From positions 1 to 64,000 of the forward strand of contig NZ_VSST01000016.1 of assembly GCF_019402665.1 (NCBI RefSeq): a stretch of 64,000 nucleotides of DNA, read 5' to 3'. Both the position numbers and the translations under genes were made by a program. The notes beneath the pieces were generated by a model that made no database searches, was not told the origin of the DNA, and saw only the letters and a program-made list of their open reading frames with translations. This DNA is from Bradyrhizobium canariense. Lineage in GTDB: Bacteria > Pseudomonadota > Alphaproteobacteria > Rhizobiales > Xanthobacteraceae. Shown piece by piece: positions 62-18,074 of this stretch (its first letter is position 1; every line of letters starts with the position of its first letter).

Positions 62-1861
62 CTACTTCGACCGCTGCATCGCGGGCTTCTCGCTGCCCTG
101 CCTTGCCGCCGACAGATTATGCGCGGTGTTGACCAGCGCGATATGCGTCAGCGCCTGCGGGAAATTGCCGGTCTGACGCTTGGCGCCTGAATCATATTCC
201 TCGGCCAGCAGCCCGACATCATTCGCGATCCCGACCACGCGATCGAACAAGGCTTGCGCCTTGTCGAGATCGCCCGCCAGCACATGGGCATCGGCCAGCC
301 ACAGGCTGCAGGCGAGGAAGGCGCCTTCGAGCGGCGGCTGCCCCGCAGGCACCTCGCGGGGATCGTGCCGCAGCACGAAACCGTCAGGCATCATGTGCTT
401 TTCCATCGCCACTATGGTGCCGCGAATGCGCGGATCCGACGCTTCCAGGAAGCCGACGGCCGGCAGCAGCAGCACGCTGGCGTCGAGCAGCTTCGAGCCG
501 TAGGACTCCACGAAGGCATTCTCCTCCGTGTCGAAGCCCCGGTTGCAGACGTCGCGATGAATGGCGTCGCGCAAGGTGCGCCAGTGCAGCAGCGGCGCCT
601 TGAAGCCGAAGGTCTCGGCGCTCTTGATGCCGCGGTCGAAGGCGACCCAGGTCATCACCTTGGAGAAGACATAGTGCTTCGGCTCTCCGCGCCGCTCCCA
701 GATGCCGTGATCGGGCTGGTCCCAGACTTCGGCGAGATGCTTGAGCACGGCGCATTCCAGCGCCCAGCTCTCGTCGTCGAGCTTGAGCTTGGCCATCCGC
801 GACTGATGGAAGGCGTCGATCAGTTCGCCGTAGACGTCGAGCTGAAGCTGCGCATGCGCGGCATTGCCGACGCGCACCGGCTGGGCGCCCTCGTAGCCGT
901 CGAGCCAACCGGCTTCCCATTCCAGCAGTCGCCGCTGGCCCCAGATGCCGTACATGATCTGCATGTTCGACGGTGAGCCTGCAGCCGCCCGCAACAGCCA
1001 ATTGTGCCAGGCCGAGGCTTCCTCGGTGTAACCCGAGTTCATCAGCGCCAGCAGCGTGAAGGTGGCATCGCGCAGCCAGCAGAAGCGGTAGTCCCAATTC
1101 CTGGCGCCGCCGAGCTTCTCCGGCAAGGAGGTGGTCGGCGCCGCGACGATGCCGCCGGTCGGACCGAAGGTCAGCGCCTTGAGTGTGATCAGCGAGCGCA
1201 CGATCAGGTCGCGATAGTCGCCATCGCGATTACAGTGGCTGCACCAGTCCTGCCAGAACTTTTCCGTCTCCTGCAGCGCGAGCTCCGGGTCGATCGGTGC
1301 GGGTGGCTCGAGATGCGAGGGGCCGTAGGTCAGCACGAACGGCACGGTCTCGCCCGCCTTCACCTCGAAATCGGAGACCGTGGTCAGATCCTCGCCGCGG
1401 GTCTTCGCGGGAGTCCGCAGCACCGTCATGTCCTGCCCGGCGACCGCCAGCAGGGAATGGTCGATCCGCCGCACCCACGGGATGTCGACGCCGAAGCCGA
1501 AGCGGATGACGAGCTCCATCCGCATCTTCACCGTGCCGCTGACGCCGCGGACCAGCCGCACGATGTCGGAGGCCTTGCCGCGCGGCGGCATGAAGTCGAT
1601 CAGCGCAACGGTGCCGCTCTTCGTCTCAAAGCGTGTCTCGAGGATGAGGGTGTCGCCGAGATAGCGGCGCGACGTCGCGGTGACGTCCTCGCTCGGCGCG
1701 ATCAGCCAGCGGCCGTTCTTGTGCGTGCCGAGGAGCGCTGCAAAGCAGGCGTCGGAATCGAAGGCCGGCCAGCACAGCCAATCGATCGAGCCGTTGCGGC
1801 CGACCAGCGCCGCGGTCTCGCAGTCGCCGATCAGCGCATAGTCCTCAATCCTCTGAGACAA
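62..1861 (-). CDS. Glycoside hydrolase family 15 (glucoamylase/trehalase-like)
   Basis: A cytoplasmic alpha-glucosidase-type enzyme of 599 aa that would release glucose from alpha-glucans or trehalose. The N-terminus (IEDYALIGD, then GSIDWLCWPAFDS) is the typical beta-domain start of bacterial GH15 proteins. The catalytic (alpha/alpha)6 barrel shows LPEKLGGARNWDYRFCWLRD with the likely catalytic acid Glu248, and LLAEEYDSG with the likely base at Glu554 or Glu555. There is no signal peptide. The start appears to be TTG at 1861, since the family-conserved MSQRIEDYA-type N-terminus begins there and no ATG or GTG lies nearby upstream; GAGG sits about 13 nt before it. It follows malQ on the same strand after 43 bp, so the two are probably co-transcribed. 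The sequence does not separate trehalase from glucoamylase activity. Confidence 0.9.
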   Translation of the reverse strand: MSQRIEDYALIGDCETAALVGRNGSIDWLCWPAFDSDACFAALLGTHKNGRWLIAPSEDVTATSRRYLGDTLILETRFETKSGTVALIDFMPPRGKASDIVRLVRGVSGTVKMRMELVIRFGFGVDIPWVRRIDHSLLAVAGQDMTVLRTPAKTRGEDLTTVSDFEVKAGETVPFVLTYGPSHLEPPAPIDPELALQETEKFWQDWCSHCNRDGDYRDLIVRSLITLKALTFGPTGGIVAAPTTSLPEKLGGARNWDYRFCWLRDATFTLLALMNSGYTEEASAWHNWLLRAAAGSPSNMQIMYGIWGQRRLLEWEAGWLDGYEGAQPVRVGNAAHAQLQLDVYGELIDAFHQSRMAKLKLDDESWALECAVLKHLAEVWDQPDHGIWERRGEPKHYVFSKVMTWVAFDRGIKSAETFGFKAPLLHWRTLRDAIHRDVCNRGFDTEENAFVESYGSKLLDASVLLLPAVGFLEASDPRIRGTIVAMEKHMMPDGFVLRHDPREVPAGQPPLEGAFLACSLWLADAHVLAGDLDKAQALFDRVVGIANDVGLLAEEYDSGAKRQTGNFPQALTHIALVNTAHNLSAARQGSEKPAMQRSK

Positions 1862-1904
1862 GGTCGTACGAGCCTCGAAAACGGCACCCTTGGAGCCCCG
1901 GCGA

Positions 1905-3866
1905 TCAACGCCCGCCGGGCAACGAGCGTTCCCGTGTCGCGGCCTTCAAAGCCGCGAGATCGACTTTCGAGGCAATCTTGTCGAGCGTCACAGGCAGGCG
2001 CTGGCGCCAGTTCGGATGCTCGTCGATCGTACCGGGAATGTTGGGCTGGTCGATCACCCCGAGCAGATCCTCCAGCGACACCGCAAGCAGCCGCGACGGC
2101 GTGCGCGACAGGAAGGCGAGCACCGAATAGACATCATTGGCACGGATGCCGTTGGCGCGCAGGATCTCGTCGAGCAGGCCGAGCGCATCCCAGCGGGCCT
2201 GATCGTTCTCGCCGGGATCGAGCCCGAGCGAGCGCTTCATCCTGAGATCGCTGAATGAGCGCCAGCCGGCATAGGTCGACAAATCATGCGTGTTCAGCGT
2301 CACCAGCGCGTTGGGCCGGTAGTGATCGACGGGCCGGAAATGACCGGCATCGTCGCGCTCGAACATCATGACGAGGTAGGACCAGATGCCGAAATCCTGC
2401 ATGGTCTCGCGAAAACCTTCCGGCACCGTGCCGAGGTCCTCGCCGATCACGATGCACTTATGGGCCGCGCTCTCGCGCGCCACAGTCGCCAGCAGCGCCT
2501 CGAACGGCATTTGCACATAGGCGCCGTTGTCGGGCTTGAAGCCGCGCGGCACCAGATAAAGTCGCTTCAGGCCCAGCACGTGATCGAGACGGATGGCCCC
2601 GGAATGGCGCATTGAAGCCGCGAGCATATCGGCGAATGGCACGAAGGATTGCGCCTCCAGGCCGCCGGCATTGAAGCCGGCGAGGCCCCAATCCTGGCCG
2701 ATGGTATTGAGCACGTCCGGCGGCGCGCCGACGGCGAGATGACGGGAGATCGCCCCCTGCTCGTTCCAGGCATCGAAGCCGTTCGACTGCACGCCGACGG
2801 CAACGTCGAGATAGAGCCCAACCCGCATGCCGAGCTGGCCGGCCAGCTCCTTGGCGGCATGCAATTGGCTATCAGCCGTCCATTGCACGAATTCGACGAA
2901 CTCGACCTCGTGCTTGTCCGGGCCATTGCGCAGCTCGGCGCATTTCGTCTCGTCCGGCTTTTGCCATTCCTCCGGCCATTCCCACCACGGCGCCGCGAAG
3001 CGATGACGGAGCACCTCGAAGCAGGCAAAGCGGGACAACAGCGGCGCGCGAGCCGCGCGGAAGGCGTCGAACTGGTTGCGGCGGACGCCGCTCGCGGTTT
3101 TGACGAAGCTGTCGAAGGCGGCGCGGAGGCCGAGCCATTTCAAGGCCGCCATGTCGGGATAGGGCACGCGATCGCCGTCACGGAGCCGCGCGGCGGTCGC
3201 GGCCGCGTCGGGGACGAGGTCGGGGGAAAATTCCGGGATCGCCTCGACGTCGATATAGAGCGGATTGAGAAACAGCCGGCTGTTCGGCGAATACGGACTG
3301 CAATCGGCCGGATGGTCGTCGAACAACACATGCAGGGGATTGAGCCCGACGCCGTCGGCCCCCAACTGCTTGGCGAGCCGGACGAGACCGGCGAGGTCGG
3401 TGAAATCGCCGATGCCCCAATTGCGGTCCGAGCGGACGCTGTAGAGCTGCACGGCAAGCAGCCAGCCGCGGTCGAAATCGCCGCCAAAGGCCCGCTCCGG
3501 CGCCACGATCATCGGCACCTCTTCGGTCACGCCTTCGGCATCGGTCAGCGTCAGGCGGTGATAGCCGAGCGGCAGGCCGGCGGGCCAGGCAATCACGGGC
3601 TCGCGCGTCTCACCTTGCGCGATCAAATTGCCGTTGCCGGTCATCTTCCATTTGAGCGGCGGCGCACCGATCGTCACCAATTCGGTGCGCGGATGGCCCA
3701 AGGCGCGTACCACCACGGGCCCGCTGACGAAGCGGTAAACCCGCTTTTCCGGCAAGGCGTCGAGGATGGATTTGAGGGCCACGGGATCGGTGACCCGCAG
3801 CTTTCCGAGGGCATCGACGAATTCGGATTGAACGCCCTTGATCCGGGCTTGAGCTAAAAGATCCAT
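1905..3866 (-). CDS. malQ: 4-alpha-glucanotransferase (amylomaltase, GH77)
   Basis: Transfers alpha-1,4-glucan segments between acceptors and releases glucose, working on linear malto-oligosaccharides in the cytoplasm. The 653-aa protein has an N-terminal extension followed by a GH77 barrel. Visible catalytic residues are Asp428 in IRLDHVLGL, Glu476 in IGEDLGTVP and Asp528 in NTHDLSTYAGW. The ATG at 3866 has no strong Shine-Dalgarno sequence. It is divergent from the glgE-like gene across about 200 bp and is followed by the GH15 gene, so it forms the minus-strand arm of the glucan/trehalose island. Confidence 0.93.
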   Translation of the reverse strand: MDLLAQARIKGVQSEFVDALGKLRVTDPVALKSILDALPEKRVYRFVSGPVVVRALGHPRTELVTIGAPPLKWKMTGNGNLIAQGETREPVIAWPAGLPLGYHRLTLTDAEGVTEEVPMIVAPERAFGGDFDRGWLLAVQLYSVRSDRNWGIGDFTDLAGLVRLAKQLGADGVGLNPLHVLFDDHPADCSPYSPNSRLFLNPLYIDVEAIPEFSPDLVPDAAATAARLRDGDRVPYPDMAALKWLGLRAAFDSFVKTASGVRRNQFDAFRAARAPLLSRFACFEVLRHRFAAPWWEWPEEWQKPDETKCAELRNGPDKHEVEFVEFVQWTADSQLHAAKELAGQLGMRVGLYLDVAVGVQSNGFDAWNEQGAISRHLAVGAPPDVLNTIGQDWGLAGFNAGGLEAQSFVPFADMLAASMRHSGAIRLDHVLGLKRLYLVPRGFKPDNGAYVQMPFEALLATVARESAAHKCIVIGEDLGTVPEGFRETMQDFGIWSYLVMMFERDDAGHFRPVDHYRPNALVTLNTHDLSTYAGWRSFSDLRMKRSLGLDPGENDQARWDALGLLDEILRANGIRANDVYSVLAFLSRTPSRLLAVSLEDLLGVIDQPNIPGTIDEHPNWRQRLPVTLDKIASKVDLAALKAATRERSLPGGR

Positions 3867-3944
3867 TCGGCACGCAGCTTGCAGGCCATTTTTTGGCCGG
3901 GGGCATCGATTTTAACGAGGTCGCGGAAGAGGTTAGTCAGGGTC

Positions 3945-3999
3945 AACTCGCAAGCCGCGCCTGCCGTTCCCCAGGGAACCAATGACACACAAGCGGCTT
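3945..3999. promoter_or_regulatory. Divergent GGAAC-type (general stress sigma) promoter candidates
   Basis: The malQ/glgE intergenic region contains GTTCC-N4-GGAAC at 3966-3979. Read leftward, GGAAC (3970-3966) is followed after 19 nt by TT (3946-3945). Read rightward, GGAAC (3975-3979) is followed after 18 nt by TT (3998-3999). This matches the GGAAC-N18/19-TT pattern known for RpoE2/EcfG-type sigma factors. The -10 parts are not the full CGTT, so this is a candidate only. Confidence 0.35.
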
Positions 4000-4070
4000 T
4001 CTATAGTGGTATCAAGCGTAGGTTCCCGGCAAGGGAAACGGGCTCCTGCTTTCTTGTCAATGGCATCACC

Positions 4071-6017
4071 GTGAACAAGACAATTCAAACTGTCGAGAGT
4101 GCCGCAGCGGGCAGCACTTTCCTCATCGAGGACGTCTATCCCCTGATCGACGGCGGGCGCTTCCCCGTGAAGCGGATCGCGCGCGAACCGGTCGAGGTCT
4201 GGGCCGACATCTACCGGGACGGCGACGCCGTGATCGGCGCAGCGCTGATCTGGCGACAGGAGCAGGACCGCGAATGGCAGAGCGAGCCGATGATCCCTCA
4301 CGGCAATGACCGCTGGTCCGGCGCGTTCACACCGGTCGAGCCCGGCAAATATGTCTATGCGATCGAAGCCTGGACCGACGAATTCGCCACGTGGTCGCAC
4401 GCGGTCGCGCGCAAGCAGCGCTCCGGTGCCGATGTCAGTCTCGATGCGATCGAGGGCGCCGGCCTTCTGACCAAGGCGCATGGCGCGCAGCAGGACGCCG
4501 CCGCCGTCATCGTCAGGCAATGCGAGGACTATCTTCAGACCGGCGACGTTGCCCCGCTGCTGGCAACCGAGCTCGGCGCAGCCATGGCCGAGAGCCAGTC
4601 GCGGCCTGATCTCACGCGCTCGGCGGTATTCCCACTGTTCGTCGACCGCGACAAGGCACGCTTCGGCGCCTGGTATCAGATGATGCCGCGCAGCCAGAGC
4701 GTGGTGCCAGGACAGCATGGCACGCTCCGCGACTGCATCGCGCGCGTGCCCGACATCGCCGCGATGGGCTTTGACGTGCTCTACTTCACGCCGATCCATC
4801 CCATCGGCCGCACCCGGCGCAAGGGCCGCAACAACACGCCGGTGGCGGCCGAAGGCGATCCCGGCTCGCCTTATGCGATCGGCGCCATCGAGGGCGGGCA
4901 CGATGCGCTGCACCCCGAACTCGGCACAATCGAGGATTTTCGCGCGCTGGTCGCGACCTGCCTGGAATACGGCCTCGAACTCGCGCTCGACTTCGCCGTG
5001 CAATGCTCGCCGGACCACCCTTGGCTGACGCAGCATCCGGAATGGTTCAAATGGCGCCCGGATCGCTCGGTGCGGACGGCTGACGGGCCCTATTCCGATA
5101 TCGTCATCCCCGATTTCACGTCCGTCGACCGGGCTGGACTGTGGAACGCGTTTCGCGACGCCATGCTGTTCTGGATCGACCACGGCGTCACCATCTTCGC
5201 CATCGACAATCATGACACCGCGCCGCTCGCCTTCTGGGAGTGGCTGATCCGTGACATCCGCCGCCGGCATCCCGAGGTGATCCTGTTCTCCAAGACGTTT
5301 GCGCGCCCGAAGCTGATGAAGGGGCTTGCCAAGCTCGGCTTTGCACAATCGTTCAGCTATTTCCCCTGGCGCACGGCGAAGTGGGAGCTGGAGCAATATC
5401 TCGGCGAGCTGACGCGCTATCCCGAACGTGATTTCTATCGGCCGAACCTGTTCGTGAATACGCCCGATCTCTTGCCCTATCATCTCCAGGGCGGCGAGAC
5501 CTGGGCGTTCAAATCGCGCCTCGCGCTGGCGGCGACGCTGTCCGGCAATTACGGCGTCTACAGCGGGTTCGAGTTGCTGGAGCATGACGCGATCCCCGGC
5601 CGCGAGGAATATCTCGATTCTGAGAAATACCAGGTCAGGCAGCGCGACTGGAACAAGCCCGGCAACATCAAGGCCTACATCACGGAGCTCAATCGCATCC
5701 GCAACGAGAATGCTGCGCTTCACCAGACCGCGAACCTGCGCTTCCTCGGCATCGAAGACGGCGAGACGATCGCCTTCGTGAAGGAGGCGACCGGCCCGGC
5801 CAACGTCGTCGTCGCCGTGGTTGCACTGTCGCGCGACGTGCGCGAATTCTGGTTGCCGCTCGGCGACGTCACGGTTGACGCCGGCGGGCAGCGACACCAT
5901 GTGTCGGCACTCGAAAACCTCCTCACCGGCGAACAGGCCCGCATCGAATGGGGCGGGATCAGGTTGCGTATCGATCCCGAGCGCGATCCGGCGCTACTGT
6001 TCCGCTGCCTGGCGTAA
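4071..6017 (+). CDS. GlgE-like maltosyltransferase homologue with altered active site
   Basis: Homologue of the GH13_3 enzyme GlgE, which extends alpha-1,4-glucan with maltose from maltose-1-phosphate. The N-terminal maltosyltransferase domain ([22 protein letters not shown]) and barrel signatures ([39 protein letters not shown]) are clear. Against canonical GlgE, however, the FRVDNPHTKP block reads [10 protein letters not shown]. The aligned nucleophile Asp379 is kept but the preceding Arg is Ala377. The acid/base position (AEAF in active enzymes) reads SKTF with Lys408, exactly 29 residues after Asp379 as in the D394/E423 pair of Streptomyces GlgE. The PPKKYQD substrate loop is absent; Asp466 is kept. 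GTG at 4071 is chosen because homology starts shortly after it; an open frame continues upstream to 3879, and no clear ribosome site is visible. It is the first gene of the plus-strand run, with treS 11 bp downstream. Confidence 0.85.
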
Positions 6018-6028
6018 GGGCGCACGCC

Positions 6029-9000
6029 ATGAACGTATTGTCTTCCGTCGACACCAAGAAAGCCGAGGCTGCCGAGATCGTGGACGAGCTCTGGTACAAG
6101 GACGCGATCATCTATCAGCTCCACGTCAAGGCGTTTGCCGACAGCAATCAGGACGGCATCGGCGACTTCGCCGGGCTGACCGAGAAGCTGCCTTATCTCC
6201 AGGAGCTCGGCGTCACCGCGCTCTGGCTGCTGCCGTTCTATCCTTCGCCCGGCCGCGACGACGGCTACGACATCGCCGACTACGGCGCGGTCAATCCCGA
6301 TTTCGGGACGATGAAGGATTTCAAGCGCTTCATCCAGGAAGCGCAGAAGCGCGGGCTGCGCGTCATCACCGAGCTCGTCGTCAACCACACCTCGGACCAG
6401 CACAATTGGTTCAAGCGCGCGCGCCGCAGCCCTCCGGGCTCGAGCGCCCGCAACTGGTATGTCTGGAGCGACACCGACCAGAAATACCAGGGCACCCGCA
6501 TCATCTTCACCGACACCGAGAAGTCGAACTGGACCTGGGATCACGAGGCCGGCGCTTTCTACTGGCACCGCTTCTTCTCGCACCAGCCGGATCTCAATTT
6601 CGACAATCCGCGCGTCGTCAGCGCCCTGATCCAGGTAATGAAGCGCTGGCTCGATGCCGGTGTCGACGGCTTCCGTCTGGACGCCATTCCCTATCTCTGC
6701 GAGCGCGAAGGCACCTCGAACGAGAACCTTCCCGAGACACATGCCATCATCAAGCGGCTGCGCCACGAGCTGGATTCCTACTCCAAGGGCAAGCTGCTGC
6801 TGGCCGAGGCCAATCAATGGCCGGAGGACGTGCAGGAATATTTCGGCCGCGGCGACGAGTGCCACATGGCCTACCACTTCCCGCTGATGCCGCGCATCTA
6901 CATGGCGATCGCCCAGGAGGACCGCTTCCCGATCACCGACATCCTGCGCCAGACGCCGGACATTCCAGCGAGCTGCCAATGGGCGCTGTTCCTGCGCAAC
7001 CATGACGAGCTGACGCTGGAGATGGTGACCGACGTCGAGCGCGACTACCTGTGGACCACCTACGCCAACGATCCACGTGCCCGCATCAATGTCGGCATCC
7101 GCCGGCGCCTCGCGCCGCTGATGGACAACGACCGGCGCAAGATCGAGCTGATGAACTCGCTGCTGCTGTCCTTCCCGGGAACGCCGATCATCTATTACGG
7201 CGACGAGATCGGGATGGGCGACAACATCTATCTCGGCGACCGCAACGGCGTGCGCACGCCGATGCAGTGGAGCCCGGACCGCAACGGCGGCTTCTCGCGC
7301 TGCGACCCGGCCCGCCTCTACGCGCCGCTGATCATGGATCCGGTCTACGGCTACGAATCGGTGAACGTGGAGGCGCAGTCGCGCAGCCTGTCCTCGCTGC
7401 TCAGCGCGACCAAGCGCCTGATCTCGGTGCGCAAATCGACGCTCGCCTTCGGCCGCGGCACCATGACCTTCATCCGCCCGGCCAACCGCGCCGTGCTGGC
7501 CTACGTCCGGCAGTACCGCGACGAGGTGATCCTCTGCGTCGCCAATCTGTCGCGGGCGGCCCAGGCGACCGAGCTCGATCTGTCGCCCTGGAAGGACCGT
7601 ATCCCGCAGGAGATGCTCGGCCGCACGCGTTTTCCGGCGATCGGCGAACTGCCCTATATGGTCACGCTGGGGCCCTATGGCTTCTACTGGTTCCAGCTCA
7701 CCGAGCGCGACAAGTCCGAGCCGGTGACGCCGCGCGCGGTGCCGGAATTCGAGACGCTGGTGGTGCCGGTGAACTCGACCTGGGTGTCGCTGGCGCGCGA
7801 GCGGGGCGTGTTCGAGCACGAGGTGCTGCCGGGATTCCTGTCGCGCACGCGCTGGTATCCCGAGCACAATCCCAAGCACATCAAGCCGACGCTGACCTCG
7901 GCGGTGCCGTTCTGCGACATCGGCGACAACAGGCCTTGGATCGCGTTCTTCGAGGCGGCGCAGGGCGATGTCACCACGCGCTACGTGCTGCCGATGCAGA
8001 TCGAATGGGTGCGCTTCGACCGCGAACGCTTCAATCCCAGGGCGCTCGCCGCCGTGCGTCAGGGCGCCCGCGAAGGGACGCTGCTGGATGTGGCAACCGA
8101 GCAGATCTTCATTGGCCTGTTCCTGCGCAATCTGTCGCAGAACCTGGTGGTGGAAGAAAACAATCTGCGGCTGGAGTTCAAGGCGACCAGCCGGTTTGCC
8201 GAGTACACCATCAAGGAGCCCGAACGCATCCGCGCGATCGAACAGTCGAACAGCACCGCGCTGGTCGACAACCAGTATGTCGCCAAGATCTATCGCCAGC
8301 TCGAAGCCGGTATCAATCCCGAGATCGAGATCGGCTCCTACCTCACGGAAATCGCCCGCTTTGCCAATACGCCGGCACTGCTCGGCAGCGTCGAACTGGT
8401 CGAAGACGACCGTCGCAGCGCAGTCGGCGTGCTGCACGCCTATGTCGAGAACCAGGGCGACGGCTGGGGCGTCACTGCGGGCTATCTCGACCGCTATATC
8501 GACGAGCAGCGGGTGCTGCCACCGGGCGAGATGCCCCGCGAGACCCAGGAGCAAGCGCCCTATCTGCACTTCATTACACAGATCGGTCGACGGCTCGCCG
8601 AGCTGCATGTGGCTTTGGCCGCCGCAAAGCCCGGCGATCTCGCGCCGGAGCCGATTGGCTCCGCACACATCAAGCGCTGGTCATCCGAGCTCAAGGCACG
8701 GGCCGAGCGGATTTTCGAGCGGCTGGCCGCCAGCACCGACGGCCTGCGGGAGGCAGATCGGCCGCTGATCAATCAGCTCGCCGCGGAGCGCGCGTCCCTG
8801 TCCGGCCGGCTCAGCGCGCTACTACCTGCCGAGATCGGCGGGTTGAACATCCGTCATCATGGCGACTTCCGCCTCGGGCAAACTCTGATCGTGAAGGACG
8901 ATATCTTCATCATCGACTTCGACGGAGATCCGCGTTTGCCGCTGGCGGAGAAGCGGCGCAAGCTGCCTGCGGCGCGCGACGTTGCCGGCCTGATCCGCTC

Positions 9001-9322
9001 GATTGATCTTTCGGTTAACGCGGCGCTCCACCGCGCGCTCACGGGTGCTTCCGACGAACAGGGCCGGCTTACGGCTGCGCTCGACGAATGGCGCGAGCGC
9101 ACCACCGCGACGTTCCTCACCGCCTACCGCGAAGCCATGACCGATCGGCGGCTGTGGCCGGAAGATCCGCAATCCGCGGCAGGCCTGTTAAGGTTTTTCC
9201 TGCTTGATCAAGCGTTCGAGGAAGTAGAGTACGAGCTGTCCCACCGGCCTGAGGGGCTCCATGCGCCGCTGTCCGGACTGCTTCGCATTCTGTCCAGTAT
9301 CGAGAGCGAAGCCCATGCCTAA
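6029..9322 (+). CDS. treS: Trehalose synthase-maltokinase fusion (TreS-Mak)
   Basis: Bifunctional protein of 1097 aa. The N-terminal GH13_16 half (about 1-550) interconverts trehalose and maltose and the C-terminal half (about 590-1097) phosphorylates maltose to maltose-1-phosphate. TreS catalytic residues are present: Asp218 in [10 protein letters not shown], Glu260 in LLAEANQWP and Asp326 in [10 protein letters not shown]. The kinase half begins with the [12 protein letters not shown] cap motif and has HGDFRLGQ (Asp946) and IIDFDGDP (Asp963). These differ from the more usual HGDxHLGQ and DFEGEP, so the second His is Arg and the Glu residues are Asp. ATG at 6029 follows an AAGGG site. The end overlaps glgB by 8 bp. 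The fusion is common in proteobacteria and feeds the GlgE pathway. Confidence 0.95.
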
Positions 9323-11453
9323 ACTCCCTGCCGAGGCCTATGCGATCATCGAGGGTCGCCACTCCGATCCCTTCCACTATCTCGGGCTGCATCCCGAGGG
9401 CGACAAGAGCGTGGTGCGCGCGTTTCTTCCCGATGCTTCCAATGTCGAGGCGGTGGGCGAGCACGGCGAGGTGGCGAAGCTCGATCGCGTCCATGATGCC
9501 GGCCTGTTCATCGGCGCTCTGCCGAACGGCGCGAAGCACTACCAGCTCCGCGCGAAGTTCGGCGATAACGTCATCGAATTCGAGGACACCTATCGCTTTC
9601 CGCCGATCCTGACCGATTTCGACCTCTATCTGCTCGGCGAAGGCACGCACCAGCGCCTTTACGACAAGCTCGGCGCGCATCCGATGCGGCTCGACGGCAT
9701 CGATGGCATCGGCTTCGTGGTGCTGGCGCCCAACGCCCGCCGTGTCTCCGTGGTCGGCGACTTCAATTTCTGGGACGGACGGCGCCATCCGATGCGGGTG
9801 CGCGGCGCGGGTTATTGGGAATTGTTCATCCCGCACGCCAAGGCGGGCGACCACTACAAGTTCGAAATTATCGGACCGCATGGCCATCTGCTTCCGCTGA
9901 AGTCCGATCCGATGGCCTTTGCAAGCGAGGTGCGGCCGAAGACCGCTTCCATCGTGTTCGACGAAGCACATCTGCCCCGGCCGCGACCGGCACCCGACGG
10001 CATCAACGCGTTGTCCGCGCCGATGTCGATCTACGAGGTCCATCTCGGCTCGTGGCGGCGCAAGAACGGCAATGAATGGCTGACCTATCGCGAACTGGCC
10101 GAGCAGCTGCCGGCCTACGCCCGCGACATGGGCTTCACCCATCTCGAATTCCTCCCCGTGAGCGAGCATCCTTTCGACGGCTCATGGGGCTATCAGCCGA
10201 CTGGCCTGTATGCGCCGACCAGCCGCTTCGGCACGCCGGAGGATTTTGCCGCACTGGTCGATGCCTGCCACCGCGAGGGCGTCGGCGTGCTGCTCGACTG
10301 GGTGCCCGGCCACTTCCCGGACGATCCGCACGGGCTCGGCAGCTTTGACGGCACAGCGCTGTACGAGCACGCCAATCCGCTCCAGGGCCGGCATCTCGAT
10401 TGGGGTACGCTGATCTACAATTACGGCCGCACCGAAGTCACGAACTTCCTGGTGTCCAACGCGCTGTTCTGGCTCGAGCGCTACGCGATCGACGGACTGC
10501 GCGTCGATGCCGTCGCGTCCATGCTCTACCTCGACTACAGCCGTCCGCCCGGCGCGTGGATTCCGAACCAGCATGGCGGCCGGGAGAACATCGAGGCGAT
10601 CGCGTTCCTGCGCCGCTTCAACACCGAGCTGTTCGCACGTTTCCCGCAGGCGACCACGGCCGCCGAAGAGTCCACCGCCTGGCCGCAGGTCTCGCGCCCG
10701 GTCGAATTCGGCGGGCTCGGCTTCGGCTACAAGTGGAACATGGGCTGGATGCACGACACGCTGAACTACATCAGCAAGGATCCGATCCACCGCAAGCATC
10801 ATCACGGCGACATCCTGTTCGGCCTGCACTACGCCTTCTCGGAGAACTTCGTCCTGCCGCTGTCGCATGACGAGGTCGTGCACGGTAAGCGCTCGATCCT
10901 GGGGCGCATGCCCGGCGACGAATGGCAGCGCTTCGCGAATTTGCGCGCCTATTACAGCTTCATGTTCGGCCATCCCGGCAAGAAGCTGCTGTTCATGGGC
11001 GCCGAGATCGCACAAAGCCGCGAATGGAATCACGACCAGTCGCTCGACTGGCACTTGCTCGAGTACAAGCTCCATTCAGGCATCCAGGCGCTGATCCGCG
11101 ATCTCAACCGGCTCTATCGCGCGGTGCCCGCGCTGCACCAGATGGACTGCGAGCAGGCCGGTTTCGAATGGTTGATCACGGACGACGCCAACCGCAACGT
11201 GTTCGCATGGCTGCGCAAGGGATTTGACGAGCACGCCCGGTGCATGGTGATCGTCAACTTCTCACCCAACGTCTATCGCAACTACCGCGTTCGCGCGCCC
11301 CTCAGTGGCAAGTGGAAGGAAGTGTTCAACTCCGACTCCGCCCATTACGGCGGCAGCAATGTCGGCAATATCGGCGAAGTCCACGCCGTCAATGGCGAGC
11401 TCCGCCTCACCATTCCGCCGCTCGCCGCGATCTTCCTCGTTCCGGAAAGCTGA
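9315..11453 (+). CDS. glgB: 1,4-alpha-glucan branching enzyme (GH13_9)
   Basis: Introduces alpha-1,6 branches into linear glucan. The 712-aa protein has the usual layout: N-terminal carbohydrate-binding module ([28 protein letters not shown]), then a GH13 barrel, then a beta-domain. Catalytic Asp398 in [15 protein letters not shown] and Glu451 in AAEESTAWP are 53 residues apart, as in E. coli GlgB, and [10 protein letters not shown] supplies the third acid. ATG at 9315 lies inside the end of treS (ATGCCTAA overlap), which indicates translational coupling and excludes the longer frame that begins at 9261. Confidence 0.96.
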
Positions 11454-11456
11454 ACG

Positions 11457-13535
11457 ATGCGCCTGACTGCTGGATCGCCCGCACGCCTCGGCGCAAGCTG
11501 GGACGGACGCGGCACCAATTTCGCGCTGTTCTCCGCCAACGCGCAGAAGGTCGAGCTGTGCCTGTTTGACATGCAGGGCCGCCGCGAACTCGAGCGCGTC
11601 GAGCTGCCGGAGCGCACCGAGGATGTCTGGCACGGCTATCTCAACGACGTCTCGCCCGGCCAGCTCTACGGCTACCGCGTGCATGGCCCCTACGAGCCCG
11701 AACAAGGCCACCGCTTCAACGCCAACAAGCTCCTGCTAGACCCCTATGCCAAGCGGCTTTCCGGGCGGCTGGTCTGGAGTGACGCGCATTTCGCCTATCG
11801 CACCGGAAGCCCGCGCGAGGATCTGTCGTTCGACCGGCGCGACAACGCGCGCGGCATGCCCAAGGCTGTCGTCGTCGACGAGACCTTCAACTGGGGCCGC
11901 CGCGAGATCCGGCCCAACATTCCCTGGGAAGACACCATCATCTACGAGGCCCACGTCAAGGGACTGACACAGAAGCGCGACGACGTCCCGCCGAATTTGC
12001 GCGGCACCTATGGCGGCCTGTCCTCGCCGGCGATGATCGAGCACCTGAAGAAGCTCGGCGTCACCACCGTTGAGCTCCTGCCGGTGCACAGTTTCGTCGA
12101 TGACCGCATCCTGGTGGAGAAGAAGCTCGCCAATTACTGGGGCTACAACACCTTGTCCTTCTTCGCGCCCGAGCAGCGCTACGCCCAGGACAACGCCCTC
12201 GATTCCTTCCGCACCACCGTCGCACGCCTGCACGATGCCGGCATCGAGGTGATGCTCGACGTCGTCTACAACCACACAGCCGAGGGCAATCATCTCGGCC
12301 CGACGCTGTGCTACCGCGGCATCGACAACGCCTCCTATTACTGGCTGAACCGCGAGAACCCGCGCTACTACGACGATTTTACCGGCTGCGGCTCGTCGGT
12401 GAACCTCACCCATCCGCGCGTGCTGCAGATGGTGATGGATTCCCTGCGCTACTGGGTCGAGGTCTGCCACGTCGACGGCTTCCGTTTCGACCTCGCCACC
12501 ACGCTGGCGCGCGGGCCGAACGGTTATGATCGCGGCAGCTCGTTCCTGACCGCGATACGCCAGGACCCGGTGCTGGCGAGCGTCAAGCTCGTCGCCGAAC
12601 CCTGGGACCTCGGCCTTGGCGGCTATCAGGTCGGCGCATTTCCTTCACAATGGTCGGAGTGGAACGACCGTTATCGCAGCGCCATGCGCCGCTACTGGAG
12701 CGGCGAAGGCAGCCTGATCGGCGACATCTCCAGCCGCATGACGGCGTCCTCCGACCTGTTCAACCACGATGGACGGCGGCCCCGCGCCAGCGTCAACCAC
12801 ATCACCGTGCATGACGGTTTCACCCTCGCCGATCTCTTCAGCTACAACGAGAAGCACAACGAGGCCAATGGCGAGGACAATCGCGACGGCTCCAACGACA
12901 ACCACAGCAACAATTGCGGTGTCGAGGGCCCGACCGACGATCCCCAAATCGTCAGCTTGCGCCGGCAGCTTCGCAAGAACGTACTGGCTTGCCTCATGTT
13001 GGCGCAGGGCATTCCGCTGATCCTCGCCGGCGACGAAGTCGGGAATTCGCAATCAGGCAACAACAACGCCTATTGCCAGGACAACGAGGTTGGCTGGGTC
13101 GGCTGGGACAATCTCGGCAAGGACGGCGACGACATGGTCGATTTCGTCGCCGAGCTCGCCGATATCCGCCGCCGGTTCTCGCAGCTTCGCAGCCATCGCT
13201 GGCTCGACGGCCGCCCCAAGGACGGCATCTCCTACGGCGCGCTGTGGCTGACGCCGGCCGGCGACGAAATGACGGAAAGCGACTGGAAATTCCCGGAAGG
13301 GCGGTTCCTCTCCTATGTGATGGGGCCGATGGAACCGGGCAGCGCCGCGATCTTTATCGTACTCAACGCAGCCCCCGAAGAGATCGCATTCAAATTGCCA
13401 AAAATGAGCGAATACAAAAGCTGGCAGCAAATCCTGAACACGACCGACGCCAAGCTGAACACGGTCGACTTCCTGCCCGGAAGCGACAGCAAGGCGCCGC
13501 CGCGCTCCGTGCTCGCTTTCGCGGGGGCGCTATGA
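11457..13535 (+). CDS. glgX: Glycogen debranching enzyme
   Basis: Isoamylase-type GH13_11 enzyme of 692 aa that hydrolyses alpha-1,6 linkages of glycogen or limit dextrin in the cytoplasm. It has the N-terminal CBM48 (SPARLGASWDGRGTNFALF) and a catalytic barrel with Asp345 in GFRFDLATTLAR, Glu381 in VAEPWDLGLGGYQ and the ITVHDGFTLADLFSYN motif. It starts 3 bp after glgB and overlaps treZ through ATGA. In this cluster it would supply linear malto-oligosaccharides to TreY. Confidence 0.95.
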   Translation: MRLTAGSPARLGASWDGRGTNFALFSANAQKVELCLFDMQGRRELERVELPERTEDVWHGYLNDVSPGQLYGYRVHGPYEPEQGHRFNANKLLLDPYAKRLSGRLVWSDAHFAYRTGSPREDLSFDRRDNARGMPKAVVVDETFNWGRREIRPNIPWEDTIIYEAHVKGLTQKRDDVPPNLRGTYGGLSSPAMIEHLKKLGVTTVELLPVHSFVDDRILVEKKLANYWGYNTLSFFAPEQRYAQDNALDSFRTTVARLHDAGIEVMLDVVYNHTAEGNHLGPTLCYRGIDNASYYWLNRENPRYYDDFTGCGSSVNLTHPRVLQMVMDSLRYWVEVCHVDGFRFDLATTLARGPNGYDRGSSFLTAIRQDPVLASVKLVAEPWDLGLGGYQVGAFPSQWSEWNDRYRSAMRRYWSGEGSLIGDISSRMTASSDLFNHDGRRPRASVNHITVHDGFTLADLFSYNEKHNEANGEDNRDGSNDNHSNNCGVEGPTDDPQIVSLRRQLRKNVLACLMLAQGIPLILAGDEVGNSQSGNNNAYCQDNEVGWVGWDNLGKDGDDMVDFVAELADIRRRFSQLRSHRWLDGRPKDGISYGALWLTPAGDEMTESDWKFPEGRFLSYVMGPMEPGSAAIFIVLNAAPEEIAFKLPKMSEYKSWQQILNTTDAKLNTVDFLPGSDSKAPPRSVLAFAGAL

Positions 13536-15286
13536 GGCCATCCTTCGGGGCGAGGCCGACGAAGGACGGCGTGTCGTTCCGGCTATGGGCACCTGCCGCG
13601 CGCCGTGTCGATCTCCTGCTCGACAGACGACACGCGATGCAGCGCCGGCAGGATGGCTGGTATGTCGCCGAGATTGCCAATCTGCCCGTCGGCAGCAACT
13701 ACAAATTCAGGATCGACGACGCGATCGACGTGCCCGATCCGGCGTCTGCATTCCAGCCCGACGACGTGTTCGGCCCGAGCGAGGTGATCGATCATGACGC
13801 CTTCGCCTGGCGCACGCCCGATTGGCGCGGGCGTCCCTGGGAAGAGACGGTACTGATCGAGACGCATGTCGGCACCTTCACTGCGGAAGGTACCTATCGT
13901 GCCATGATCGACAAGCTCGATCATCTCGTCGCGACCGGCATCACGGCGGTCGAGCTGATGCCGCTGGCCGACTTCGCCGGTCGTCGCGGCTGGGGTTATG
14001 ATGGCGTGCTGTGGTACGCGCCCGACAGCGCCTATGGTCATCCCGATGATTTGAAGACGCTGATCGACGAAGCCCATCTGCGCGGGCTGATGATGTTCCT
14101 CGACGTCGTCTACAATCATTTCGGCCCCGAGGGAAATTACCTCGGCCGCTACGCGCCGGCCTTCTTCACCGACGCGCACACGCCATGGGGCAGCGCGATC
14201 GATTATCGCGTGCCGCAGGTTCGCGCTTTTGCCGTCGAGAACGCGCTGTCGTGGCTCAGCGATTATCGCTTCGACGGCCTGAGGCTGGATGCCGCCAATC
14301 ACATCATGGCGATCCCCGGCGAGCAATCGATGCTGCAGGACCTCAGCGTCGCCGCGGGCGAGCTTGCCAAGGCGACGGGACGGCATATCCATCTCGTGCT
14401 GGAGAACGGCGACAATCGCGCGAGCCTGCTCGACGCCGCGCAGGAGCCTCCGAACGGCAAATATCGCGCCCAGTGGAACGACGACTACCACCACGTCTGG
14501 CACGTGATGCTGACGGGCGAGCTCGCTGGTTATTACGCGGACTATCAAACACCGCGCCTCGATCTCGCACGCGCGCTCGCCTCCGGCTTCGTCTATCAGG
14601 GCGAAATCTCTGAATTCTGGGGCAAGAAGCCGCGCGGCGAGAACAGCGGCGAGCTGCCGCCGGCAACCTTCGTCAATTTCCTGCAAAACCACGACCAGAT
14701 CGGCAACCGGCCGCTCGGCGACCGGCTCGAAAGCCTGGCATCGCCCAAGCAGATCGAAGCAGCACTCGCGGTGACCCTGCTCGCGCCGATGGTGCCCATG
14801 CTGTTCCAGGGCGAGGAGTGGGGCTCCACCGTGCGCTTCCCGTTCTTCTGTGACTTCCAGGGCGGACTGGCTGATGCCGTCCGCAAGGGGCGCAGGCAGG
14901 AATACGCCTGGGCCTATGAAAAGTACGGCGACGACGTGCCCGACCCGCTCGATCCGGCAACGCTGCAATCGGCCGTGCTCGACTGGAGCGGCCACACGCC
15001 GGAGCAGGATGCACGCCTCGCGCTGGTGCGGGAGCTGCTCGCACTCCGCCACAAGGAGGTCGCGCCACGACTGAAAGGTGCGCGCTTCGGTGATGCCGCC
15101 GTGGCCGATAGCGGGCTGCTCACCGCACATTGGCACATGGGGGATGGCGCGACGTTGCGCCTCGTGGCCAAACTCTCCGACAAGGACGCCGCATATTCCG
15201 ACGACGGTGTGGGGACCCTGATCTGGGGCGGCGCGACCGGCGATCGGCTTGCGCCCTGGTCGGTGGTCTGGCGCCTCGGAGGTTGA
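13532..15286 (+). CDS. treZ: Malto-oligosyltrehalose trehalohydrolase
   Basis: Second enzyme of the TreY-TreZ route, cleaving maltooligosyltrehalose to release trehalose. The 584-aa protein begins MRPSFGARPTKDG at the ATGA overlap with glgX, a typical length; an open frame upstream to 12914 is only out-of-frame read-through of glgX. Catalytic residues are Asp253 in DGLRLDAANHI, Glu291 in VLENGDNRAS and Asp388 in LQNHDQIGNR. There is a single base between its stop and treY, so the two are co-translated. Confidence 0.95.
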   Translation: MRPSFGARPTKDGVSFRLWAPAARRVDLLLDRRHAMQRRQDGWYVAEIANLPVGSNYKFRIDDAIDVPDPASAFQPDDVFGPSEVIDHDAFAWRTPDWRGRPWEETVLIETHVGTFTAEGTYRAMIDKLDHLVATGITAVELMPLADFAGRRGWGYDGVLWYAPDSAYGHPDDLKTLIDEAHLRGLMMFLDVVYNHFGPEGNYLGRYAPAFFTDAHTPWGSAIDYRVPQVRAFAVENALSWLSDYRFDGLRLDAANHIMAIPGEQSMLQDLSVAAGELAKATGRHIHLVLENGDNRASLLDAAQEPPNGKYRAQWNDDYHHVWHVMLTGELAGYYADYQTPRLDLARALASGFVYQGEISEFWGKKPRGENSGELPPATFVNFLQNHDQIGNRPLGDRLESLASPKQIEAALAVTLLAPMVPMLFQGEEWGSTVRFPFFCDFQGGLADAVRKGRRQEYAWAYEKYGDDVPDPLDPATLQSAVLDWSGHTPEQDARLALVRELLALRHKEVAPRLKGARFGDAAVADSGLLTAHWHMGDGATLRLVAKLSDKDAAYSDDGVGTLIWGGATGDRLAPWSVVWRLGG

Positions 15287-15287
15287 C

Positions 15288-18074
<2,787 letters not shown>

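Follow-up and report, generated by a model that had tools for sequence, protein, structure and literature searches.

The locus analyzed here raises the question of why a GlgE homologue that lacks the catalytic acid/base residue should be kept as the first gene of an operon. It lies in a 64,000-nucleotide stretch of Bradyrhizobium canariense DNA (assembly GCF_019402665.1, contig NZ_VSST01000016.1, positions 1 to 64,000 of the forward strand), referred to here as the window. The GlgE gene is followed there by genes for a TreS-Mak fusion, GlgB, GlgX, TreZ, and TreY, and MalQ and a GH15 protein are encoded divergently. We found that Lys occupies the acid/base position in this protein and throughout one large Bradyrhizobium clade (K-type proteins), that the maltokinase (Mak) domain of the adjacent fusion has degenerated in the same clade, and that the gene is under purifying selection in a conserved operon. 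The reading we favor, with a probability of about 0.6, is that this is a GlgE pseudoenzyme which binds glucan and is retained as a partner of the TreS/GlgB/GlgX/TreYZ module.

Replaced active-site residues

The window protein belongs to GlgE (GH13_3) by descent and fold. The PF11896 model (GlgE domain N/S) scored it with 180.6 bits (cut-off, 25), the generic alpha-amylase model gave 22 bits, and a phmmer search of the Protein Data Bank (PDB) aligned residues 18 to 643 with GlgE of Streptomyces and Mycobacterium (best E value, 7e-146). An AlphaFold model based on an alignment of 73 proteins had a mean predicted local distance difference test score (pLDDT) of 88.1, and its top 15 PDB matches were all GlgE, with template modeling (TM) scores of 0.77 to 0.84 and 36 to 40% identity; an earlier reading made from the sequence alone (the sequence-only reading) had likewise held that the fold is kept. 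Compared with GlgE1 of Streptomyces coelicolor (GH13_3, EC 2.4.99.16; PDB 3zss and 4cn1), which shares 36 to 40% identity in structural alignments, the protein has the same fold, domain order, domain N/S, and acceptor groove. It retains the equivalents of Q324, D394, N395, Y357, and D480.

In S. coelicolor GlgE, D394 serves as the nucleophile and E423 as the acid/base (PMC5076824, PMC4526890), and the roles of loop residues as donor-phosphate ligands are taken from PMC4526890. The phmmer alignments with the Streptomyces proteins agree with the replacements first noticed in the sequence: a different ten-residue segment faces FRVDNPHTKP, and FSKTF faces LAEAF. Lys408 lies 29 residues past Asp379, the residue aligned with the nucleophile; the alignment is free of gaps between the two, and no Glu is seen at a shifted position. 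Two additional substitutions were found, with A377 for R392 and D382 for H397. The substrate loop, which had been described as missing, is three residues shorter, so that of the donor-phosphate ligands N352, K355, Y357, and N395 the first two are lost and the last two are kept (Y357 as Y341). A search of the window genome for a second GlgE returned no full-length protein, the sole other match being weak (36% identity over residues 197 to 322).

These features were then followed in a final set of 234 distinct GlgE sequences, 113 of which have Lys at the acid/base position. Of these, 111 combine it with Ala377 and Asp379, one has Val379, and one has Thr377 and Ala379. The phosphate loop is shorter by three residues in 106 of the 113, by five in 4, and by one in 3. 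The two K-type proteins that also lack the nucleophile (Asp to Val and Asp to Ala) have an otherwise almost unaltered motif; one is represented by loci L009 and L284 (one gene) and the other by L117 and L171, taken as one gene on the basis of the same motif and identity. Among the other 121 sequences, 119 have the Arg, Asp, and Glu of the active enzyme, L255 has Lys in place of the nucleophile, and L265 has Gly in place of the acid/base.

The loss of the acid/base, the R392 equivalent, and the phosphate loop makes it very unlikely that K-type proteins use maltose-1-phosphate (M1P), in line with the proposal of the sequence-only reading that this is probably not a normal maltosyltransferase. 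As judged from these residues, maltosyltransferase activity has very probably been lost. It might be argued that phosphate is a good leaving group, so that the first half-reaction could proceed without Glu423 and Lys408 or Asp382 could aid the second. The nucleophile, present in 111 of the 113 proteins, and the title of PDB entry 4cn4, according to which S. coelicolor E423A took a fluoro-maltosyl modification, are compatible with such a working GlgE. However, two of the phosphate ligands, N352 and K355, are missing together with the R392 equivalent, two members lack the nucleophile, and the supplier of M1P is degenerate in the same clade (see below); we therefore regard it as very improbable.

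The acceptor side of the active site presents a different picture from the phosphate side. The residues that correspond to W448, P428, Y445, R427, and R449 of S. coelicolor GlgE are W433, P413, Y430, R412, and R434, and they were found in 113, 112, 109, 109, and 108 of the 113 K-type proteins, respectively. The E423A variant of the S. coelicolor enzyme is catalytically compromised, and its crystals bind malto-octaose over subsites -2 to +6; crystals of both the D394A and the E423A variant of the Streptomyces enzyme contain bound malto-oligosaccharides (PMC5076824). K-type proteins are natural counterparts of these laboratory variants in that they lack the acid/base; they differ from them in having Lys rather than Ala, in their further changes, and in the fixation of this state throughout a clade that accounts for about half of the Bradyrhizobium genomes searched. 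By analogy with these variants, K-type GlgE most likely binds alpha-glucan without cleaving it. The binding by these variants, the retention of the groove residues, and the constraint on the protein make a partner or regulator that binds glucan the role with the best support. Of the suggestion that the protein binds glucan or M1P as a regulator or scaffold, the glucan part thus fits best, whereas M1P is unlikely to be bound in the absence of the phosphate loop.

Distribution in Bradyrhizobium

All sequences with Lys at the acid/base position are at least 76% identical to the window protein, whereas all others are at most 72% identical; Glu is present in 120 of the 121 sequences that are more distant than 76%. 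A sequencing error or an oddity of a single strain is excluded because all 113 distinct proteins at or above 76% identity carry Lys. A pseudogene was likewise rejected, since the frame is open over its full length and no internal stop was seen in any K-type sequence examined. The GTG start codon was present in 108 of 108 K-type genes examined.

In a genus-wide search, GlgE was matched with an E value of 1e-100 or better in 206 of 265 Bradyrhizobium genomes. K-type GlgE is present in at least 131 of the 265, i.e., about half; this figure comprises at least 130 sequences at 76% identity or more, counted by hand among the 150 matches listed, plus genome G078, in which the gene is split. Each K-type genome gave one GlgE match (four candidates were scored per genome), and G078 showed its two halves. 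In that genome (locus L193), the frame is split at approximately 13637 to 13649, near residues 181 to 186, and the halves otherwise resemble their relatives; the gene may truly be broken, or the split may stem from a sequencing error. By elimination from the matched genomes, G115, G125, G120, and G137 have no GlgE. Among named relatives, 77 of 80 were K-type, including strains of B. japonicum, B. diazoefficiens, B. yuanmingense, B. betae, and B. huanghuaihaiense; these 80 are the most similar of 302 relatives and are thus biased toward the K-type. The carriers include soybean symbionts, and genomes G724 and G123, which we take to be B. diazoefficiens USDA 110 and B. japonicum USDA 6, respectively, are both K-type and have a degenerate Mak pocket.

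Loss of the acid/base as a common event in GlgE was rejected. Glu423 was kept in all 36 family loci fetched from other genera (37 of 37 when L255, a Bradyrhizobium, is included). At the class level, 31 of 289 genomes were matched, and it was kept in all 29 loci fetched besides that of the window. In a tree of TreS-Mak from which the pocket columns had been removed, all 47 K-type sequences formed one clade, with a support of 100 in the Shimodaira-Hasegawa-like approximate likelihood ratio test (SH-aLRT).

The maltokinase domain of the adjacent fusion

If GlgE cannot use M1P, the product of TreS-Mak would need another outlet, as the sequence-only reading proposed. This presumed an active maltokinase. 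In the M. vanbaalenii enzyme, the HGD motif supplies the putative base, Asp305, and Asp322 is the Mg-binding residue; His307 belongs to the lining of the putative maltose pocket, and mutation of Lys413, Tyr416, or Tyr420 practically abolishes activity (PMC4306142). In 98 distinct K-type loci, His307 is replaced by Arg without exception, Lys413 is kept in 7, and Tyr is never found at position 416 (71 Asp, 10 Asn, 7 His, 7 Glu, and 3 others); Tyr420 is kept in 94, and the Trp of the RPDW motif is replaced by Gly (94) or Ala (4). An intact pocket is thus absent from all 98 K-type loci and from 1 of 45 active-type Bradyrhizobium loci; all six residues checked are present in 44 of these 45 and in 29 of 30 loci of other genera. 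The TreS half of the same protein is intact, with its catalytic R/D/E/D in 91 of 91 distinct K-type loci (164 of 164 readable loci when duplicates are included). The window genome has one match to the Mak model. For TIGR02149, which presumably represents the GlgM family, no match in this genome exceeded the cut-off, and there were 19 weaker ones (best E value, 1.7e-24). These replacements suggest that K-type Mak has likely lost its activity and that M1P is probably not made in the clade; an outlet for M1P is therefore probably not needed.

The TreS-Mak fusion is also known from Pseudomonas aeruginosa, which has glgE and glgB as neighbors as well, and from Estrella (TreS-Pep2; PMC8084333, PMC11046441). 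In comparison with these fusions, the K-type protein has a degenerate maltose pocket next to an intact TreS.

GlgE and Mak could alternatively have shifted together to a different sugar, with GlgE acting perhaps on another donor or as a hydrolase, and K-type Mak may phosphorylate another substrate. Such a pair of altered enzymes would account for several features: (i) GlgE keeps the nucleophile, the transition-state Asp, and Asn395, D379 being retained in 111 of 113 proteins and D466, N380, and K408 in all 113, with H381, D382, and K408 forming a fixed new set; (ii) Mak keeps its residues for ATP, and the Mak base Asp305 and the Mg-binding Asp322 are present in 98 of 98 loci, in which the Arg at His307 is equally fixed; (iii) ten hand-picked pocket columns are more constrained than random columns of the barrel (P = 0.02); and (iv) the ratio of nonsynonymous to synonymous substitution rates (dN/dS), calculated pairwise by the Nei-Gojobori method and as such a crude estimate, is barely raised over the whole of Mak (0.223 in K-type versus 0.214 in active-type loci). 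Conversely, the nucleophile has been lost in two lineages with little other change to the motif. The C-lobe, the sole part of Mak that differs, has a higher dN/dS (0.28 versus 0.22), whereas the TreS half of the fusion has a lower one (0.044 versus 0.081). Given the many different residues that replace Lys413 and Tyr416 and the opposite trends of the C-lobe and TreS, the changes in Mak look more like loss than like a new specificity. Furthermore, a Lys in place of Glu423 would hardly be expected to act as the acid/base. We consider a joint change of substrate unlikely.

Loss of the M1P supplier and of its user in the same clade may represent the exit of a lineage from the GlgE pathway. TreS-Mak fusions from genomes without a full GlgE match had a degenerate pocket in 24 of 29 readable loci and an intact one in 5. 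This count was taken from the individual loci (a thirtieth, L298, was unreadable); the tabulated class without GlgE at the locus (31 loci: 26 degenerate, 5 intact) included L203 and L204, which are Mak-only loci of K-type genomes. Four genomes have an active-type GlgE next to a free-standing, intact Mak (L215 to L218 with L050, L051, L195, and L196), and the fused Mak elsewhere in these genomes is degenerate; one of the four GlgE proteins (G110, L195) is split into two pieces. In L255 (G365), GlgE (3904-5850, minus strand) has Lys for the nucleophile Asp and Asp for the following Asn, and the Mak of the fusion (595-3891, minus strand) has Gly for the Mg-binding Asp322, an inactivation separate from that of the K clade.

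Other observations depart from this pattern of joint loss; L265 and the five GlgE-less loci with an intact pocket also weigh against the reading we favor. L265 (G412; 4245-6188, minus strand) has a dead GlgE, with Gly for Glu and an altered phosphate loop, beside an intact Mak pocket, and possibly represents an early stage of loss. In L194 (G083; 1995-4016), a sister lineage of the K clade, GlgE is longer and its loop is altered, its catalytic residues are retained, and Mak has Ala for Tyr416; this may show that Mak failed first. On the tree, the association between GlgE and Mak amounts to about four independent comparisons (on average 2.2 in agreement, 0 in disagreement, and 1.8 uninformative) and is not significant in a sign test of low power, in which the fused Mak sequences of the genomes of L215 to L218 were labeled as lacking GlgE although an active-type GlgE is present; the co-loss counts given above come from a locus table that sets these loci apart.

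Constraint, gene setting, and possible role

The sequence-only reading held that the gene is under selection, and this was borne out. The median pairwise dN/dS of GlgE was 0.150 for K-type and 0.184 for active-type genes; the respective values were 0.122 and 0.156 for the barrel and 0.052 and 0.061 for the catalytic motifs. Trees with 109 K-type sequences and with 70 active-type sequences gave site rates, which are expressed relative to the mean of the protein. Motifs I and II evolve at 0.21 to 0.22 in the K-type and at 0.31 to 0.35 in the active type, whereas the phosphate loop and the IHPIG-RNN loop evolve at 0.85 to 0.87 in the K-type and at 0.37 to 0.47 in the active type. Relaxation is thus greatest in the phosphate-side loops, partial in motifs III and IV, and absent in motifs I and II. 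No change was seen at N380, H381, D382, K408, and D466 over the 109 K-type sequences. At a false discovery rate of 5%, constraint had been gained at 31 sites and lost at 16. Six of the gained sites fall into the 13-residue stretch 288 to 300 (permutation P = 0.01, with a stretch length chosen after the cluster had been seen), which sits on barrel helix 287-299 of the AlphaFold model; synonymous sites around it vary normally. This helix is possibly a new contact surface. The catalytic loss is fixed in the clade under purifying selection, as in a conserved pseudoenzyme.

A cluster of gained constraint at residues 7 to 14 was rejected as a protein feature, since synonymous sites are near-frozen there and model confidence is low. 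The proportion of synonymous differences (pS) is 0.12 over codons 1 to 10, compared with about 0.3 to 0.4 over most of the K-type gene, and the first eight codons (4071 to 4094 in the window) are near-invariant, synonymous sites included, over 108 K-type genes and not in the active type. The constraint at the start of the operon looks as if it acts at the level of DNA or RNA.

This start-of-gene constraint bears on whether a functionless GlgE is decaying slowly as the first gene of a translated operon, in which a loss of frame would cut downstream expression. Such decay would agree with the near-invariant first codons, the distance of only 10 to 12 nucleotides between the GlgE gene and treS, the split frame in G078, the Bradyrhizobium lineages that have no gene or a lost active site, and the partial relaxation of the catalytic face. 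It is at odds with the site-specific constraint on amino acids: motifs I and II and the acceptor residues are far slower than the rest, there are new invariant residues, and polarity would not preserve K408 or W433 in 113 of 113 proteins. The single split frame also stands against 130 sequences in which the full query is covered without an internal stop. Slow decay thus appears quite unlikely.

According to the reading we favor, one large Bradyrhizobium clade would descend from an ancestor in which both M1P steps of the GlgE pathway had been switched off. The Mak domain would have lost its maltose pocket, so that M1P is probably no longer made, and GlgE would have lost the acid/base, the R392 equivalent, and the phosphate loop, leaving it unable to use M1P. 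TreS, GlgB, GlgX, TreY, and TreZ would have been retained, and glycogen could be formed in the window genome via GlgC-GlgA, whose adjacent genes (the classical glycogen route) are present. Instead of being lost, GlgE would have become fixed in a new form under constraint, one that holds alpha-glucan chains, uncleaved, in the old acceptor groove and serves as a tether or regulatory subunit of the TreS/branching/debranching module through the side of the barrel that gained constraint (helix 287-299 and its neighbors). The partner role itself we judge to be slightly more probable than its absence. GH13 folds without a full catalytic set serve as regulatory or partner subunits in the plant isoamylase ISA2 and the transporter subunit 4F2hc; K-type GlgE belongs to a different GH13 subfamily. 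It is rather doubtful, though conceivable, that GlgE and Mak were jointly turned into noncatalytic glucan- and sugar-sensing subunits around TreS, the one remaining activity, that in nodulating Bradyrhizobium couple trehalose-maltose interconversion to the state of the glycogen granule.

In addition to the retained Mak residues, the nearly unchanged dN/dS of Mak, its possible other substrate, the crudeness of the dN/dS estimates, the nonsignificant association between GlgE and Mak, L265, and the GlgE-less loci with an intact pocket, further points count against a glucan-binding partner. (i) The nucleophile Asp, kept in 111 of 113 proteins, would be superfluous in a pure binding protein. (ii) The equivalents of R449 and Y445 are gone in five and four K-type proteins, respectively. 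(iii) The catalytic face is less constrained than in the active type: motifs III and IV evolve at 0.52 to 0.55 of the mean (active type, 0.32 to 0.34), and six motifs and loops jointly at 0.56 (active type, 0.36). (iv) As regards gene setting, 3 of 35 active-type loci (L050, L051, and L196) have a different one.

The operon itself is conserved. The order MalQ/GlgE/TreS-Mak/GlgB/GlgX/TreZ was seen in 90 of 108 K-type loci, the other 18 being too short to judge, and in 19 of 35 active-type loci, 13 of which were too short; the GlgE gene thus remains first in an intact cluster, as had been noted from the window. The features of the window are compiled in Table 1.

Table 1. Features of the window discussed in the text (Sco, S. 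coelicolor GlgE; Mvan, M. vanbaalenii maltokinase)
Feature	Coordinates	Strand	Remarks
Putative GlgE pseudoenzyme, K-type (Lys at acid/base position)	4071..6017	+	PF11896 N/S domain and GH13 barrel; 648 aa; GTG start at 4071, stop codon 6015-6017
Donor-phosphate loop remnant, codons 331-343	5061..5099	+	AENPPKKYEDI in most active-type sequences; 3 residues shorter; N352 and K355 lost; Y357 = Y341
Codon 377	5199..5201	+	Ala for Sco R392; 112 Ala and 1 Thr in 113 K-type
Codon 379	5205..5207	+	Aligned nucleophile Asp (Sco D394); 111/113 K-type, Val or Ala in two
Codon 382	5214..5216	+	Asp for Sco His397 (+1 subsite); 113/113 K-type
Codon 408	5292..5294	+	Lys for acid/base Glu423; 113/113 K-type
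TreS-Mak fusion	6029..9322	+	Begins 11 nucleotides past the GlgE stop; TreS catalytic residues intact
Mak (maltokinase) domain, TIGR02457	7739..9292	+	Maltose pocket altered: R948 (Mvan His307), Q1061 (Lys413), E1064 (Tyr416), G1076 (Trp of RPDW)
GlgB branching enzyme	9261..11453	+	Start of open reading frame given; true start may be a later Met
GlgX debranching enzyme	11457..13535	+	
TreZ (maltooligosyltrehalose trehalohydrolase)	13532..15286	+	Start inferred within open reading frame 12914-15286
TreY (maltooligosyltrehalose synthase)	15249..18074	+	
MalQ 4-alpha-glucanotransferase	1905..3866	-	Divergent neighbor of the GlgE gene
GH15 trehalase-like protein	62..1861	-	Next divergent neighbor beyond MalQ

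A 2021 paper credits B. japonicum with "a complete glgE operon" and infers that desiccation phenotypes attributed to trehalose may be alpha-glucan phenotypes (PMC8084333). For K-type species this inference is doubtful, because both M1P steps look dead at the residue level. Calls of the GlgE pathway in Bradyrhizobium consequently need checks of individual residues: the genes of the operon are present, yet the pathway is probably not working. In other organisms, loss of glgE leads to accumulation of M1P and to harm (PMC5042117, PMC4526890, PMC8084333). A literature search, mainly of open-access papers and at the level of listings, found no report of an inactive GlgE homologue or GlgE pseudoenzyme. 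Should K-type GlgE prove to be a glucan-binding partner, it would be a natural noncatalytic GlgE that could be tested in the soybean symbiont B. diazoefficiens, which is amenable to genetics. By its position, the gene for this protein in B. diazoefficiens USDA 110 is probably blr6766.

In B. diazoefficiens, treS (blr6767) is under the control of sigma-EcfG (PMC8092242), and a treS mutant contained more trehalose and less maltose (Sugawara et al. 2010, as cited in PMC8092242), a phenotype that fits a TreS yielding free maltose. Neither the 108 upstream stretches of K-type genes nor the 63 others searched contained the strict sigma-EcfG promoter pattern GGAAC-N15-18-CGTT, and no RNA family reached the gathering threshold in the window. 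The region between the GlgE and MalQ genes (3960 to 4070) contains a GTTCCC...GGGAAC arrangement, missed by the repeat finder, that is present in most of the nine upstream sequences compared.

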